Assembly (NCBI GenBank): GCA_002070275.1
Contig: MWCY01000008.1
Coordinates: 1 to 64,000 of the forward strand
DNA: 64,000 nucleotides
Direction: 5' to 3'
From: Candidatus Hydrogenedentes bacterium ADurb.Bin170
GTDB lineage: Bacteria > Hydrogenedentota > Hydrogenedentia > Hydrogenedentales > CAITNO01
Within the stretch, counting starts at the first letter, position 1; each line of letters begins with the position of its first letter. Shown here in pieces: positions 6,858 to 15,698 of the stretch. The notes beneath the pieces were generated by a model. It was not told the origin of the DNA. It made no database searches and saw only the letters and a list, made by a program, of their open reading frames with translations. A program made the position numbers and the translations under genes.

Positions 6858-9800
6858 TTAATCTTCCACACGACTATTCGGAGCCAGCAGTGTCACAGGT
6901 CCCAGCAGGCCCGAAGGCTGCAAGGGATCGTCCGCGTGCCAATGCCGCCAAGTGGCGAAGCTAATCCTGCCGGAGGGGCTGCTCTTTCCATCCAGCAGCC
7001 ATTGCGGCCAGAATTTCAGCGTACCGTCCGGTTTACGGTCGCTGTCTGCAGGCAGCCGTTCATCGCCGATCATTCGGTTGACCCACAGATTCACCACCTC
7101 GATTTCCAGATGGTTTGTGCCTGCATGCAAAGCGGCACCCGGAGGCAATCGGTACGGCTTCTTCCAGCAGATACCCAGATCCCGGCCATTCAGTTTTACC
7201 GATGCCGCAACGTTGACTGTACCAAGATCAATCTGAAGCCCCGGCAATTCAGCCAGCTTCTCCCCTATCTCGAAGTCACGTGCATAAATCGCGGGACCTG
7301 AATAATATCTGATTTCGGGTGAAGTATGCAGAGACCAGTCCGTCAACTCGCTGAAGAGAACCGGCTCTTTCGGCCCGCCCAAAGCGGGATCAAAACTGAC
7401 CTGCCAGGGCCCTGGAATCTCCGCCCGTTTTTCATAGGCGACAAAATTCTTTTGGGATGCCGGAATGCTGGATTTCGGCATCTCCGGGCTGAAGAGAACA
7501 AAATAACTTTCTCCCGCTTCAAAATGAAGGGGGATCTTCATGCGCCCGTCTTCAAGCCTTGCATATTCCGGCAGGGCACGAACACTGCCGTCTTCAGGGT
7601 GAAGCAGAATCGGCAAGCCACCGGCGGAGCGGAACACTGCCTCTGCGTCCAGAGCGGAGGCGCTGCCATTACTGACAAAATACAATGCGCCTTCCGCTGT
7701 TCTTTTATGAATGAAGCGGAGAGCCGCCGGCGCTTCAAAGTCGGGCGGAATACCCAAATCGCACAGAAGCGCTTCCAATGCGGCAGAGGGCGGATAAAGA
7801 CCGGAGCGTTTCCCGACAGGTTTTATCATGCCCCAAGGCGGTATGCCCATCTGCCCCAGCACCTGCACAGGCTTCCACTCTGCAGGAACCGCAGGCTTTT
7901 CCTGCCATCCGGATACTGCTTCTCTGCTGCTGTACCAGCTGCTGTCGGTACACAGCACCTCCTCTTTGCCGGACCGGCTGCGGATATGCAGAGCGGCAAT
8001 CAAACCGGCAGGGTTGGCTTCCTCTCCTGCATTGTCCACTTCAAAGGCAATCAGATTTTTGCCGGGGTACAGTAATGCACACACATCAAAGCTGCGGATT
8101 ACCGTAAAGTTGGTTCCTTCGCCCGCATAAGCACCGTTTATCCACAGGCGGAATGCATTGTCTGCCGTGACGGAGAGGGTGGCATCCGCGGGAGCGCCTT
8201 CCTCAGTGATCGAGCACTCTTTCATAAAAAAACACCGCCCCGGAAGTGCGGCAAGAGGGTCCTCATCACTACACCAGATCCAATGGGCATCGAGGAGAGG
8301 ATTTTTCTCTTCCCGGAGCTGACTGCCCGGATGCAGAGCACCGCCCCGAAAAATATTTCCTTTACCGACCCTGAGTTTCTGACGTTCCGCCGGGCACCGC
8401 TCTCCGTGCCATAAATCTGCCGCCAGTTCCCGAAGCTTTTCATCCTGCTCCGGGAGTCCCGAAAGCCCAGGTGTCCTGATGGGAGGCAGACCGACCACAG
8501 TCGCGCCGTCCTGCACCAGTTGCACTATCTTTTCAAGAAGTGGCAGGCTCATGATTTCAGAATCAGGCAGTATCAGCATCCGGTAGCGGGCATCGCCATC
8601 ACTTACGAGAAAGCCGTCTTCACACCGCACACGCCGCAGCAATGCATCGGCTGTGCATGCATCATATTTATACCCTCTAGGTGCAGGCTCGGGCCCCTGA
8701 AAAACGTTCGGTGCGCCTTCCAGACTCAAATAAAGCAGATCCGCCTCCGCCGGATGACGCAGGGCATTCTGGCAGCGTGCAAGATATTCATGCCAGGGCT
8801 GCGCCATTTTCCACCAATGCTGGGTGCGCTCGTAATGCAGCCCGTGCGGGCCGAGGCTCAGCCCGGGTCGTATCTGCATAAAGGGCTGATGGATGTACCG
8901 GTGGATGACCAGCCTGTTCACACCCTCGGAAAAAGCCCAGTCTCCGTTCGTTTTGATTGCTCCGGGATGAAGCAGCCATTTATCCACTGAGGTAAACGCT
9001 TCTGCGGCGACAATCGGCTTGCCGTAAATATGGGCGGCCGATGCCGCTTCACGAACACTGTAACGTGTATCGAAGGTGTCGCTCCAGAACTCGCACATGG
9101 GGACATCCGCTGCGGCACTCAAGTTCATATTGCCGCAGGGTGTCATATCATAGGCTTCAATAGAAAGCTTCAGCCCCGAATCGTGGGCAAGACGCTGCAT
9201 CTGTAATCCGTGATATTCGACAATCATCTCCGACACGGTCTGCCGGAGATCCCACAAGAAACGCTCAGATGAGGTGCCTGAGTCCAGAATCCTTCCGGAC
9301 ACCACCGGAAGCCACGGCAGGATATCATAGCCGCGGCGTTTCTCGAATTCATCCTGAAAATTATCCGTCCAATTTTGCCCGCCCACCTCCCAGCTGTCAA
9401 AATGAATTCCCGCAAGCGTTTTGCCTGCGAGATCACCGCTGTCCTGCAACAGCTTACTTATATAGGCGTTGAAATGCTCCTCCAGTGCGACGGGATTCAG
9501 TTTGTCGCATTCCAACCCCGGCAGCGGTGAAGGTCTGTTTGTCTGACCGGTACTTGTATACCCTGCCCGCAACACAATCCAATTGCCCTCAGGCACATCC
9601 CAGACAAGAGTGCCATCCGAACTCATATCATCACTGATATTCCGGACAGACTTCGGAGGCACACACTGAGACGGGTCTGCGGACGGATAGTCCGCTACGG
9701 GATCAAAGTAAGGGCGCACACCGGGCATGGAGGAAAAAGGTGCTCGGGTGTACAAAGATTTTTCTTCCAGCGCCTCTATATGTGCACCCGGCTGAGGTTC

Positions 9801-10328
9801 CGGAAAAGCAAGTACAGCAATATCCCGGTAGAAATCGCATACACTTTCCGGCTGCGGAAGAGAAGCCTTGAAATGCATAGGTCCGGTCACCCGTATTTCT
9901 GAAAAAACAAGTTTCTTCATCGATTTTTCAGCCGTGATCCAGGGACCTCCGCTTCCGGTCCAACCCGGGGCACTGTTGATAACCATCTGTAACCCCAGCC
10001 GGTTCGCCTCCTGCAGAGCAAAGGCGAAATGCGCCCGCCATTCATCGCTGAAAAAAGAAACAGGGCCCGGCGGAACGCTAAGCGCCACTTCCATCACAAT
10101 GGCTCCGCCGATCCCGGACTGTTCCATGGCCTCAAGATCGGCGGTAATACCCTCACGACTGATGTTGCCATTCTTCCACATCCAGTAAACCCAGGGGCGC
10201 GCCTCCGAGGTCAGCTTCAGAAGATCGGTGGGATCAGCAGCAAAGGTACTGCCTGACAAGAAAATGAAAATCAGCAAGCACCACAAAGAGGCACAGATAG
10301 AAAAGCGAGCCCGTAAATTAATTCCCAT
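6858..10328 (-). CDS. secreted alpha-L-rhamnosidase-like glycoside hydrolase (GH106 type)
   Basis: This is a 1156-aa exported enzyme. The signal peptide spans about residues 1-30. The mature N-terminus carries features typical of GH106: RPWVYWMWKNGN, SGIGGAIVMEV and APGWTGSGGPWI. A central region with LSLGPHGLHYERTQHWW is also characteristic. The C-terminal part has GH2-like jelly-roll sequences (SVKLNGRDLGICWKKPYR, EIEVVNLWVNRMIGD). GH106 enzymes remove alpha-L-rhamnose from rhamnogalacturonan and other plant or microbial glycans. I chose the ATG at 10328 because GGGAGAG precedes it and the longer reading would put about 31 odd residues before the signal peptide. Together with PelA it suggests pectin use. 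Confidence 0.83.
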   Translation of the reverse strand: MGINLRARFSICASLWCLLIFIFLSGSTFAADPTDLLKLTSEARPWVYWMWKNGNISREGITADLEAMEQSGIGGAIVMEVALSVPPGPVSFFSDEWRAHFAFALQEANRLGLQMVINSAPGWTGSGGPWITAEKSMKKLVFSEIRVTGPMHFKASLPQPESVCDFYRDIAVLAFPEPQPGAHIEALEEKSLYTRAPFSSMPGVRPYFDPVADYPSADPSQCVPPKSVRNISDDMSSDGTLVWDVPEGNWIVLRAGYTSTGQTNRPSPLPGLECDKLNPVALEEHFNAYISKLLQDSGDLAGKTLAGIHFDSWEVGGQNWTDNFQDEFEKRRGYDILPWLPVVSGRILDSGTSSERFLWDLRQTVSEMIVEYHGLQMQRLAHDSGLKLSIEAYDMTPCGNMNLSAAADVPMCEFWSDTFDTRYSVREAASAAHIYGKPIVAAEAFTSVDKWLLHPGAIKTNGDWAFSEGVNRLVIHRYIHQPFMQIRPGLSLGPHGLHYERTQHWWKMAQPWHEYLARCQNALRHPAEADLLYLSLEGAPNVFQGPEPAPRGYKYDACTADALLRRVRCEDGFLVSDGDARYRMLILPDSEIMSLPLLEKIVQLVQDGATVVGLPPIRTPGLSGLPEQDEKLRELAADLWHGERCPAERQKLRVGKGNIFRGGALHPGSQLREEKNPLLDAHWIWCSDEDPLAALPGRCFFMKECSITEEGAPADATLSVTADNAFRLWINGAYAGEGTNFTVIRSFDVCALLYPGKNLIAFEVDNAGEEANPAGLIAALHIRSRSGKEEVLCTDSSWYSSREAVSGWQEKPAVPAEWKPVQVLGQMGIPPWGMIKPVGKRSGLYPPSAALEALLCDLGIPPDFEAPAALRFIHKRTAEGALYFVSNGSASALDAEAVFRSAGGLPILLHPEDGSVRALPEYARLEDGRMKIPLHFEAGESYFVLFSPEMPKSSIPASQKNFVAYEKRAEIPGPWQVSFDPALGGPKEPVLFSELTDWSLHTSPEIRYYSGPAIYARDFEIGEKLAELPGLQIDLGTVNVAASVKLNGRDLGICWKKPYRLPPGAALHAGTNHLEIEVVNLWVNRMIGDERLPADSDRKPDGTLKFWPQWLLDGKSSPSGRISFATWRHWHADDPLQPSGLLGPVTLLAPNSRVED

Positions 10329-10362
10329 GACATGGCTCTCCCGTTTCAGGATTGATGACAAG

Positions 10363-10392
10363 ATAATAAGTAACACACGGAGAACAATACAA
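10363..10392 (-). promoter_or_regulatory. candidate promoter for the GH106-like gene
   Basis: On the minus strand TTGTAT (10387-10392) and TATTAT (10363-10368) are 18 bases apart. They lie about 35 bases upstream of the rhamnosidase start. Confidence 0.4.
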
Positions 10393-10433
10393 GGACTTGT
10401 GGCGGTCGGCGTTAAAATCATAGGGCTCCATCT

Positions 10434-10515: not shown

Positions 10516-10743
10516 ATGAATGTCCGGTTCCTTTTTCTTTCAGTGCTATTTGCTTCCCTTTTCATTTATCAGCAACAGGCACACGCCTATCTGGACCCCT
10601 CTTCCGGATCGGTACTGATCCAGATTATTCTGGGCGGTGTTGCCGGTTTTTTTGTGCTGCTGAAGATTTACTGGCGGCGCATCCGGCGTGCGCTGGGACT
10701 GTACAAAGAAGACAGCCATCCTGAGAACGTGTCCGATGAATGA
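10516..10743 (+). CDS. small membrane protein with YLDPSSGS motif
   Basis: This 75-aa protein has a signal peptide or first membrane helix (about residues 1-24), then AYLDPSSGSVLIQ. A second helix follows (about 33-50, rich in Ile, Gly, Val and Phe), then a basic, short cytoplasmic tail (KIYWRRIRRALGLYK). I recall similar YLDPGTGS-type small proteins next to surface-polysaccharide and methyltransferase genes in many bacteria, but I know of no assigned function. The ATG at 10516 gives the signal peptide; an AAAGAGATG stretch precedes it. It overlaps the following gene by 8 bases, which argues for coupled translation and a shared task. Confidence 0.75.
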   Translation: MNVRFLFLSVLFASLFIYQQQAHAYLDPSSGSVLIQIILGGVAGFFVLLKIYWRRIRRALGLYKEDSHPENVSDE

Positions 10744-12148
10744 GGGATTATTTCATCAGGAGCCCGGCTCTTTCCGTGACCGAAACAATCAGGTTTATAT
10801 GGTTGACGGCCGCATTGTGCGGGGCATCTCATCCACGGCACGTGCGCATTGGGAAGCACTGAAAGAGAGTTCCTTCTACAAAAAACACAGTGCTGCCGGT
10901 CGTATTGTAGCCACCCGCGAGATTGCGCCGGACAACCTGCCTTCGCCTTTTACTGAAGAGCAGCTCTGGGACTGCTACCTCGAACATGACCGCCTTCCTT
11001 TCATCAGCTACGTTTATGAGTGGTGCTTCGGCATGCTGAAAGATGCGGCGCTCCTGCATCTTGACCTGATGGAAGGAGCACTTCGTGAAGGTCTTATTCT
11101 GAAAGATGCATCGGTTTTCAACATTCAGTTTTCCGGTGCCCGGGAAGTATTTATCGATCTTCCTTCTTTTGAGCGGTATGAGGCCGGAATGCCCTGGGTG
11201 GGCTTCCGCCAGTTCTGCCAGCATTTCCTGTATCCTCTTATGCTGCAAAGTTACAAAGACATTTCTTTTAAAAACTGGTTTAAAGGAAATGTGGACGGCA
11301 TTACCCCAAAAGAATGCAATAACATTCTTTCGTTTCGCGATAAATTCCGTAAAGGCGTTTTTTCTCTCGTATATCTCCAGTCAAAGCTGGTTGATTCCAT
11401 GGGAAATGCAAAGCGCTCCATTGTTTCTGAAGCACAGGACAGCGATTTCGGCAAAGAAATTATTCTTGCCAATGTTAAAAAATTGCGCAAAATTATTTGC
11501 GGGCTGGAGTGGAAGCCTGCCCGATCTGAATGGTCGGATTACACGAAAACACACAGTTACGACGACACCTGTTTTGAGCAGAAATGCCGCTTTGTAAGCG
11601 AAGCCGTTGCAGAGAAGCCCCTGAAGCTGGCGTGGGACATAGGCTGCAATACCGGGCATTTTTCCCGGATACTGGCGAAAAACAGTGCATATGTTGTAGC
11701 TCTGGATATTGATGAGCTGTCCGTCCAGCGGCTGTACGAGTCGCTTCGTCAGGAAGGGACAGACAATATTCTTCCTCTGGTATTTGACCTGACCAATCCC
11801 TCTCCTCCGCTTGGCTGGCGTTGCCGGGAACGGCATGCTTTAGAGCAACGGGGTGCGCCGGAGCTGGTCCTGTGTCTTGCACTGGTACATCATCTGGTGA
11901 TCACAGGCAATGTTCCGCTGCGGGAGGTTATCGAGTGGCTCGCTTCTTTCCGCTGCGCCATTGTTATCGAAATGCTGACAAAAGAAGATGATATGGTCAG
12001 AAAGCTTCTTCTGAACCGGGTGGATCAATATCCGGAATTTACCATTGACGGTTTTGAAAGCCTTGCCGCTCCCTATTTCACCGTGAAGAAAAAAGAAGAG
12101 GTCATGGCAGGAAAACGTTTCCTTTATCATTTACTCCCACGGGAATAA
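10736..12148 (+). CDS. kinase-like domain fused to SAM-dependent methyltransferase
   Basis: This is a 470-aa cytoplasmic protein. The C-terminal half is a class I methyltransferase, with motif I WDIGCNTGHFS (about residues 300-310) and the acidic ALDID at 322-326. The N-terminal half has a stretch resembling the catalytic core of APH/protein-kinase-like folds: LILKDASVFNI (Asp124, Asn129) followed by VFIDLPSFE (Asp141), in the order expected for the catalytic loop and the metal-binding Asp. The kinase reading is my inference. The overall protein resembles methyltransferases related to nodulation protein NoeA. The ATG at 10736 overlaps the end of the small membrane protein gene. A role in surface-glycan or lipid modification is suggested by context only. 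Confidence 0.75.
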   Translation: MNEGLFHQEPGSFRDRNNQVYMVDGRIVRGISSTARAHWEALKESSFYKKHSAAGRIVATREIAPDNLPSPFTEEQLWDCYLEHDRLPFISYVYEWCFGMLKDAALLHLDLMEGALREGLILKDASVFNIQFSGAREVFIDLPSFERYEAGMPWVGFRQFCQHFLYPLMLQSYKDISFKNWFKGNVDGITPKECNNILSFRDKFRKGVFSLVYLQSKLVDSMGNAKRSIVSEAQDSDFGKEIILANVKKLRKIICGLEWKPARSEWSDYTKTHSYDDTCFEQKCRFVSEAVAEKPLKLAWDIGCNTGHFSRILAKNSAYVVALDIDELSVQRLYESLRQEGTDNILPLVFDLTNPSPPLGWRCRERHALEQRGAPELVLCLALVHHLVITGNVPLREVIEWLASFRCAIVIEMLTKEDDMVRKLLLNRVDQYPEFTIDGFESLAAPYFTVKKKEEVMAGKRFLYHLLPRE

Positions 12149-12372: not shown

Positions 12373-14163
12373 ATGAAATCCTGCCGAGCTTTTCGTACCC
12401 TTTCCGCAGTTTTCGCCTTCATCGTCTTGTGCGTTTTTTCTGCCGCGGGCAATACGCTCACAGATCAGTCGCTGGCACGCCTTGCGGCAAAACCGCCTGT
12501 GTGCGATGACGTGGTGGACTTTGTCGTCTGTGCCGACCCGCAGCCGGGAGGATTATTAGGCACACCGCAAGTTTTTCTTGATATGCTGGATGAATGGAAT
12601 GTACTGCAGCCTGACCTTGTCATGTGTGTGGGCGATATGATCATGGGCGGTCCGGCGGATGTCGTCGGTTCCATGTGGGATGAATTTCTGGGCAATGTGG
12701 GTAAGCTTCAGGTGCCTTTTTTTCCGACAGCCGGGAACCATGATGTCAATCCGGAGCCTGCTGTCATGAGCACTTATGAAGAACGGGTATCCCCTTTTTA
12801 CTATTCGGTCGTACGGGGCAACAGTGAATTTATTGTGCTCAATACGGAGGAGCCGGGAAATCCTGACGGCTTTTCTCCGTCTCAGCGGAAGTGGCTTGAA
12901 AAAACGCTTGCCGCCAGCAAAGCCAGACACATCTTCATTTTTCTGCATGTCCCGCTGTTTCGCGGCAACTGGGCGCGGGACTGGCAGCATATGGAAGATC
13001 TTTTTGTCCAATACCCGGTCCGTGTTGTTTTTGCGGGACATGAGCACCTCTATCGTGACTGGGGCACGCATAAAGGAATCCGTTATGTAGTCGCCGGCAG
13101 TGCAGGCGGCGGTTTCCGCACGCCGGAGGAAGAAGGCGGTATGTTCTGCTATCTCTGGGTGAAAGTCCGGGGAGAAGAAGTATCCTGGTCTGTGGTCCGC
13201 CCCGGTGCTGTGCTTCCTTCCGATGTTGTGACTGAAACCAACGTGCAGAAACTGCATGCGCTGCAGAAAATTCTTGACATTGAAGAAATTGCTGTACACT
13301 GGAACAGCACACTGGATCAGAAAATCGAAGTACGCCTGCACAATCCCTTTTCCGAAGAAATCAGCAGTACTTTCCTGTGGGAAATACCGGAAGGCTGGAC
13401 GGTAACCCCTGCCTCCCATACCTTTAAAGTCGCCCCGGGAACCACCGAAGTGCAGCAGTGCCATGTGAAAACAGATGGCGCCTTCCGTTTTCCCAGTCCT
13501 GTACTGCAGGGAAAAGTGGAAGCGGAAGAACTCGTGAGGACGCTGGAATTAAGCCCATCACTGGATGTAAAACCGCAGGCTTCAGCGCCGCAGGCTCCGG
13601 GAAAGGTTGTTTTGGATGGTGACCTTTCTGAATGGTCGGGGGCTGTTCCCCTTCCCATGCTATACGGAAGCAGTTATGACCCGGCAGAGACGGAAGATCT
13701 GCAGGCACAGGCGCGGCTCATGTGGGATGAAAACAATTTGTATATCGCTGTGGAAGTGGAAGACAACGAATTTCATCAGCCTCACTACGGTGATGTTGTG
13801 TGGATGGCCGATAGCGTTGAGCTGTGGGTGGAAGATTCAAACTGGAGCTTCAGCCTCACTGAAAGCGGGCCTCAGGTGTTTCTGGACGAACGCCCGGACA
13901 AGCATCTGGATGCGGTCATCGACGGCGTACCGCTGGCTGTAAAACGGGACGGAAGGCGTACCGTTTATGAAGCGGCCTACCCCGCAGAGGAGCTGCCTCA
14001 GATCGCCTGCCGTGCCGGAAGTGTCATCCGTTTTTCCATTCTGGTCAACGATCTGGATCCTTCGGGTCCACTGACAAAACGGCATTATGCGGAACTGACG
14101 CCGGGTGCCGGGGCTCACTTTGACTGTGCCAAATATTTTATAACGCTGGAAGCAGCCCGCTGA
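12373..14163 (+). CDS. exported calcineurin-like metallophosphoesterase with CBM9-like C-terminus
   Basis: This is a 596-aa exported protein with a signal peptide at about residues 1-26. Metallophosphoesterase motifs occur in order: DPQ (Asp55, Gln57), GDM (87-89), GNHD (121-124), LHVP (near 195) and GHEH (near 225). These coordinate a two-metal centre that hydrolyses phosphate esters. A beta-sandwich linker follows. From about residue 412 there is a module starting VLDGDLSEWSG, with DENNLYIAVEVEDNEF and DSVELWVED, typical of CBM9/DOMON-like sugar-binding domains. The combination suggests a cell-surface phosphoesterase tethered to polysaccharide. AGGAAC precedes the ATG. It stands alone and converges on the SIMPL-domain gene. 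Confidence 0.82.
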   Translation: MKSCRAFRTLSAVFAFIVLCVFSAAGNTLTDQSLARLAAKPPVCDDVVDFVVCADPQPGGLLGTPQVFLDMLDEWNVLQPDLVMCVGDMIMGGPADVVGSMWDEFLGNVGKLQVPFFPTAGNHDVNPEPAVMSTYEERVSPFYYSVVRGNSEFIVLNTEEPGNPDGFSPSQRKWLEKTLAASKARHIFIFLHVPLFRGNWARDWQHMEDLFVQYPVRVVFAGHEHLYRDWGTHKGIRYVVAGSAGGGFRTPEEEGGMFCYLWVKVRGEEVSWSVVRPGAVLPSDVVTETNVQKLHALQKILDIEEIAVHWNSTLDQKIEVRLHNPFSEEISSTFLWEIPEGWTVTPASHTFKVAPGTTEVQQCHVKTDGAFRFPSPVLQGKVEAEELVRTLELSPSLDVKPQASAPQAPGKVVLDGDLSEWSGAVPLPMLYGSSYDPAETEDLQAQARLMWDENNLYIAVEVEDNEFHQPHYGDVVWMADSVELWVEDSNWSFSLTESGPQVFLDERPDKHLDAVIDGVPLAVKRDGRRTVYEAAYPAEELPQIACRAGSVIRFSILVNDLDPSGPLTKRHYAELTPGAGAHFDCAKYFITLEAAR

Positions 14164-14876: not shown

Positions 14877-15698
14877 CTACATCTTCAGCATCGGAGCAAA
14901 AATATCTTGGAGTCTTTGCTTGTCCGGCTGATTTCCGTATTCACAGACCTGAAACATTTCAGCAAAACGGCAGGATGCTTTACCGGCAGGGGTCCACTCA
15001 GCCAGTGCATCGCCGTGCAGCTTTACCGGCAGTTCCAGTTCGGGTGAAAAGAACTGTTTCAACCAGAAGAGGCGTTCCGCAGGATCCGCATCAGCGGGGG
15101 GCACCTCTCCGGCCTTCCCTTCCAGCCAGGGCAGCCATTCATAAAACTGTGAATCCATAGCGTCCAGCAATTGCCATTTCCGCGGCATCAGGGTATCCAC
15201 AGGCAGCGCAACGTCCGCGCGAAAGGGCACCGGGTAGGTAAAGGGATCAAAGAGATAAAGAAAAAGCGGATTCTTCTGAAGCGCAGGGACATCCGGGCAG
15301 AACTGAGGAACCGTCACCATAAAGGCAGCATCCTGTACCGCCTGCGCCGCATATCTGTGATCCGGATGATAATCATTGGGACGATGGGTAAACACAATAT
15401 CCGCCCGGCATCGGCGGATAATACGCACAATCTCTTTGCGCAGTTCCAGTGTAGGCATCAGCTCGCCGTCATGATGATCCAGCACCAGCGATTCATAACC
15501 ACCGATTTCTGCTGCCCGCGCAGATTCAGCCAGACGACGCGCTGCCAGCATGCCCCCACCCAGAGCGTAATGTCCGATATCACCATTGGTAAGAGAAACA
15601 GCGAGCACCCGGTGTCCTGCTTCAGCAAAGCGAATCATGGTCGCACCTGCGAAGACTTCAGGGTCATCGGGATGGGCGCCGAAACACACCAGATTCAT
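14877..15698 (-). CDS. PIG-L/LmbE family deacetylase
   Basis: This 273-aa protein has the zinc-binding AHPDDPE motif at residues 8-14 and HPDH at 111-114, the defining residues of PIG-L/LmbE N-acetylglucosamine deacetylases. There is no signal peptide, so it acts in the cytoplasm. Relatives remove acetyl groups from GlcNAc-containing glycolipids, mycothiol or bacillithiol precursors, or antibiotics. The substrate here is not evident. The ATG lies just upstream of the lipoprotein gene's TAA (start 15698, stop ending at 15700), so translation is likely coupled. Confidence 0.88.
   Translation of the reverse strand: MNLVCFGAHPDDPEVFAGATMIRFAEAGHRVLAVSLTNGDIGHYALGGGMLAARRLAESARAAEIGGYESLVLDHHDGELMPTLELRKEIVRIIRRCRADIVFTHRPNDYHPDHRYAAQAVQDAAFMVTVPQFCPDVPALQKNPLFLYLFDPFTYPVPFRADVALPVDTLMPRKWQLLDAMDSQFYEWLPWLEGKAGEVPPADADPAERLFWLKQFFSPELELPVKLHGDALAEWTPAGKASCRFAEMFQVCEYGNQPDKQRLQDIFAPMLKM

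Follow-up and report, generated by a model that had tools for sequence, protein, structure and literature searches.

By its sequence, the 470-residue protein encoded in the window, a 64,000-nucleotide stretch of contig MWCY01000008.1 from Candidatus Hydrogenedentes bacterium ADurb.Bin170, belongs to the NoeA/Lani_1194 family of kinase-methyltransferase fusions, and its gene is preceded by that of a 75-residue small membrane protein with a YLDPxxGS motif, a pairing that recurs across many phyla. The enzyme family itself is already known. Krysińska et al. (2022; PMC9758233) described the Lani_1194 family as a kinase-methyltransferase fusion with NoeA as a homolog, so the system is not undescribed, as the sequence-only reading had supposed. 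What is new here is how strong and how widespread the association of this enzyme with the YLDP microprotein is.

The small protein is encoded at positions 10,516–10,743 and the 470-residue protein at 10,736–12,148, both on the forward strand. The two lengths and the overlap read from the sequence earlier were confirmed: the frames share 8 bp (ATGAATGA, 10,736–10,743, forward strand), an arrangement that is consistent with translational coupling. The gene to the left (6,858–10,421) lies on the opposite strand and the one to the right starts at 12,373, about 225 bp past the enzyme gene, so the pair looks like a unit of its own. A promoter and terminator scan around the pair returned only sites near shuffle level. 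Read by eye, the left neighbour is a large secreted glycosidase-like protein, the right neighbour (12,373–14,163, forward strand) a metallophosphatase-like protein, and a PIG-L/LmbE-like deacetylase follows at 14,877–15,698 on the reverse strand; these genes near the pair make up no evident polysaccharide cluster.

Sinorhizobium meliloti NoeA aligned with the 470-residue protein at 33.5% identity over 97% coverage (E about 1e-63) in a tblastn search of plasmid records, in which full-length relatives were also found in Sinorhizobium, Rhizobium, Singulisphaera, Gemmatirosa and others, annotated as NoeA or as SAM-dependent methyltransferase. Among the matches listed, the nearest named record was a Candidatus Hydrogenedentota metagenome-assembled genome at 63% identity. 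The best 80 loci from genome contigs span at least Planctomycetota, Actinomycetota, Alpha- and Gammaproteobacteria, Acidobacteriota and Binatia, besides others, and a full-length homolog is present in 12 of the 68 genomes searched from the order of the window. We dropped the idea of phage cargo because a single relative among viral contigs does not make a typical viral gene. On that IMG/VR contig (L106), which may be a misassigned bacterial fragment, the NoeA homolog is accompanied by a NoeB-like gene and a divergent YLDP gene.

The N-terminal half (residues 1–262; 10,736–11,521, forward strand) was modelled by AlphaFold2 with a mean pLDDT of 89.3 and a pTM of 0.88; for the whole protein, modelled with 45 sequences, the values were 91.2 and 0.92. 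All but one of the 50 PDB fold matches listed for this half were kinases or kinase-like proteins, including PknG, Abl, Src, AceK and RNase L, the exception being a chain given merely as an entry for a pre-40S ribosomal particle. The best E value was 3.1e-5 and the probabilities were 0.95–1.00, yet the TM-scores were low (0.28–0.44), from which we conclude that this half has a divergent kinase fold. No Pfam kinase model matched the 470-residue protein, no Pfam or NCBIfam family covered the kinase half, and its sequence profile found no match among PDB sequences at E values up to 5. In the model, strands 120–122, 130–133 and 136–139 flank Asp124, Asn129 and Asp141 in the order of a kinase catalytic loop and metal-binding Asp. 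The sequence-only reading had proposed a kinase or APH domain from KDASVFN, which occupies residues 123–129, and VFIDLPSFE, which contains Asp141. The kinase fold is borne out by the model and the fold matches, and the three residues, whose conservation had been suggested as a check, are invariant in an alignment of 16 homologs and again in all 45. An aminoglycoside kinase was discarded, because no APH Pfam model matched and no APH was among the 50 listed structures, which lie nearer to protein kinases (PknG, AceK and tyrosine kinases). Arg29 and Glu95 are likewise identical in 45 of 45 homologs; Arg29 is placed by the model in a strand preceding a helix, like Lys72 of PKA, and is our proposed equivalent of that residue. 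The kinase-like domain of Lani_1194 is described in the same terms: the equivalents of D166, N171 and D184 are kept and Arg replaces Lys72 (PMC9758233).

For the C-terminal half (about residues 289–470; 11,600–12,145, forward strand), SAM methyltransferase Pfam models matched about residues 300–402 below their curated cut-offs, among them Methyltransf_12 (E 2.4e-5). Motif I is DIGCNTG at residues 301–307, and Asp301, Gly303, Asn305, Gly307, Asp326, His385, His386 and Glu412 are identical in 45 of 45 homologs. The fold matches of this half were class I methyltransferases, with NodS among the first and WbdD lower down, which together with the Pfam models upholds the methyltransferase half recognized earlier. 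Neither the whole-protein model nor the fold matches contained an additional domain C-terminal to the methyltransferase. The PADLOC model mad2 matched residues 283–357, in the methyltransferase region, weakly (E 3.8e-7); we took this as generic methyltransferase similarity and dropped a defence system.

Among named systems, NoeA comes with the same two domains, the same invariant residues and an overlapping small open reading frame with the motif YLDPGTGS directly upstream. It differs in its nodL and noeB neighbours and rhizobial host, whereas the window pair has neither neighbour and a non-rhizobial host. The window protein shares with the Lani_1194 family the order of kinase then methyltransferase, the D/N/D residues and the Arg for Lys72; the published family has conserved neighbours, and the window enzyme has a constant one in the YLDP protein. 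In the published survey, the methyltransferase is fused in 94% of about two thousand Lani_1194 homologs, and among 816 neighbourhoods Lani_1193 occurs in 65% and Lani_1195 (NoeB) in 38% (PMC9758233); the NoeB neighbour, of alkaline-phosphatase fold, is thus common without being defining, and it is absent beside the window pair. The main text of that article does not mention the YLDP motif; Lani_1193 is probably the YLDP small protein. WbdD of E. coli O9a is also bifunctional, with a kinase and a class I methyltransferase; it phosphorylates the terminal mannose and then methylates the phosphate in ABC-transporter-dependent O-antigen synthesis (PMC3482155). Its methyltransferase half resembles the window protein in fold and weakly in sequence (E 0.012), but no sequence similarity to the WbdD kinase was detectable in the kinase half, and the WbdD order of methyltransferase, kinase and C-terminal coiled coil is reversed in the window protein, which has no counterpart of the coiled coil. 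Membership in the WbdD family is therefore unsupported, the likeness being one of domain content. The Lcin_0519 family, another kinase-methyltransferase fusion with an envelope context, is treated in its published description as a family of its own, in which the interface between the domains differs (PMC9758233).

The 75-residue protein starts with MNVRFL and includes AHAYLDPSSGSV. A signal-peptide-like N terminus ending in AHA leads to YLDPSSGS, which is followed by the hydrophobic segment VLIQIILGGVAGFFVLL and the basic tail KIYWRRIRRALG. The same layout of a single hydrophobic segment and a basic tail after the motif is found in other members. In many Gram-negative ones a signal-like stretch ends with AxA right before YLDP, and many actinobacterial ones begin a few residues ahead of it. 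Within the YLDPxxGS segment, Tyr, Asp, Gly and Ser are invariant. By the positive-inside rule, the hydrophobic segment and basic tail suggest that the YLDP end faces outward and the tail inward. No credible family for the protein was found in Pfam, NCBIfam or PADLOC. One member of the set matched the NCBIfam model blaBIC (E 0.0019), which we took as chance on account of its signal-peptide-like residues.

A motif scan found YLDPxxGS-like upstream open reading frames in 76 of 97 loci, and a profile built from those added 15. Of the 96 loci with enough upstream sequence, 91 thus have the YLDP gene directly upstream of the enzyme gene and on its strand. This figure is slightly optimistic, since the window itself is among the loci, one contig seems to be counted twice (as L004 and L026), and training and scoring of the profile drew on one set of loci. 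The recurring linkage that the sequence-only reading had asked about is therefore real, in constant order and strand, and the pairing is far beyond chance. Four of the remaining loci lack the YLDP gene; in the fifth (L025, Deltaproteobacteria bacterium Smac51) it lies downstream of the NoeA homolog, 1443 bases past the start of the enzyme gene. Apart from this one downstream gene, the profile found no comparable matches in the rest of the locus flanks. The YLDPGTGS frame that overlaps S. meliloti noeA (L022, 5,748–5,963) is annotated as a hypothetical protein. A reverse search with a model of the small protein in the 68 genomes from the window's order found both genes in 12, the enzyme alone in one and the YLDP gene alone in none, for a hypergeometric probability of about 2e-12 with relatedness ignored; in one of the 12 (G017), the enzyme is a contig-end fragment adjoining the YLDP gene.

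Two related genomes (G034 and G036) had a divergent YLDP-like match on another contig, beside a fusion of a family 2 glycosyltransferase and a methyltransferase. These small proteins (L125, 1,474–1,782, reverse strand; L126, 1,441–1,686, forward strand), with the motifs YIFGGMEA and YIDGGMAA, are apart from the NoeA homolog of the same genomes. This arrangement suggests that the YLDP family has further partners, likewise glycan enzymes.

In 30 of 97 loci the enzyme gene is followed immediately, on the same strand, by a NoeB-like gene whose product has a Sulfatase domain, and 67 of the 97 carry such a gene at some place in their flanks. Both counts are approximate because of shadow frames in the gene calls of high-GC flanks. 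The profile behind them was made from sulfatase-fold proteins encoded nearby and matches S. meliloti NoeB at 2.2e-20; a search with the single NoeB sequence found no relatives in the locus flanks. S. meliloti NoeB (L022, 7,378–9,036) itself matches Pfam Sulfatase (4.3e-11), which fits the published prediction of an alkaline-phosphatase fold. The profile found no NoeB-like gene adjacent to the window pair, and elsewhere in the source genome sulfatase-fold proteins are at most weakly similar to NoeB.

We hold with moderate confidence that the window encodes a NoeA/Lani_1194 member with its usual YLDP partner, a membrane-held enzyme that would phosphorylate and methylate a glycan or a lipid-linked sugar. 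The YLDP protein would sit in the inner membrane, with its YLDPxxGS end outside and its basic tail inside, and hold or regulate the soluble cytoplasmic kinase-methyltransferase there. The enzyme would phosphorylate a sugar or lipid-linked glycan of the cell envelope, and the product would then be methylated, possibly on the phosphate itself by analogy with WbdD. Many other genomes have a NoeB-like membrane enzyme of sulfatase/phosphodiesterase fold, which may contribute to this pathway on the outer side of the membrane. Both the membrane tethering and the glycan or lipid substrate are plausible.

The enzyme might instead act on a small molecule or a secreted signal, and not on a polymer of the envelope. 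According to Ardourel et al. (1995), as cited in PMC4053727 and PMC9048898, noeA is a host-range gene of nodulation. NoeA belongs to the nodL-noeA-noeB operon and has been hypothesised to modify Nod factors (PMC9048898; PMC9758233), and a natural truncation of noeA coincides with poor nodulation (PMC4053727). The family nevertheless occurs in bacteria of many phyla without known nodulation, and its steady association with a membrane protein favours the envelope, which makes this explanation unlikely. We consider it less probable still that the enzyme phosphorylates or methylates a protein such as the YLDP protein, with the pair being an enzyme and its dedicated substrate. Such a relationship would agree with the near one-to-one pairing, the invariant Tyr, Asp, Gly and Ser and the predominance of protein kinases among the listed fold matches of the N-terminal half, but the conserved segment is predicted to be extracytoplasmic and so apart from ATP and SAM, and the cytoplasmic tail is not strongly conserved. 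The least probable explanation is a catalytically dead kinase half that scaffolds or gates the methyltransferase. The replacement of Lys72 by Arg and the lack of a Pfam kinase match would fit it, as would the lack of an ion-pair Glu, which according to the published description was not found in the Lani_1194 kinase domain (PMC9758233); against it, all 45 homologs, divergent as they are, keep Arg29, Asp124, Asn129 and Asp141, which is what one expects at an active site.

Since the description of its operon in 1995, what NoeA does biochemically has been a matter of hypothesis. That role becomes more accessible now that NoeA is seen as a branch of a widespread family, one accompanied constantly by a small membrane protein; the gain is moderate because the enzyme family was already published. 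Our broader proposal is tentative: the YLDP microprotein may be a dedicated and required membrane subunit of a widespread, two-component envelope-modifying kinase-methyltransferase, with the NoeB-like protein as an optional third part. If so, rhizobial NoeA would be a copy that was recruited from a general system of envelope decoration.
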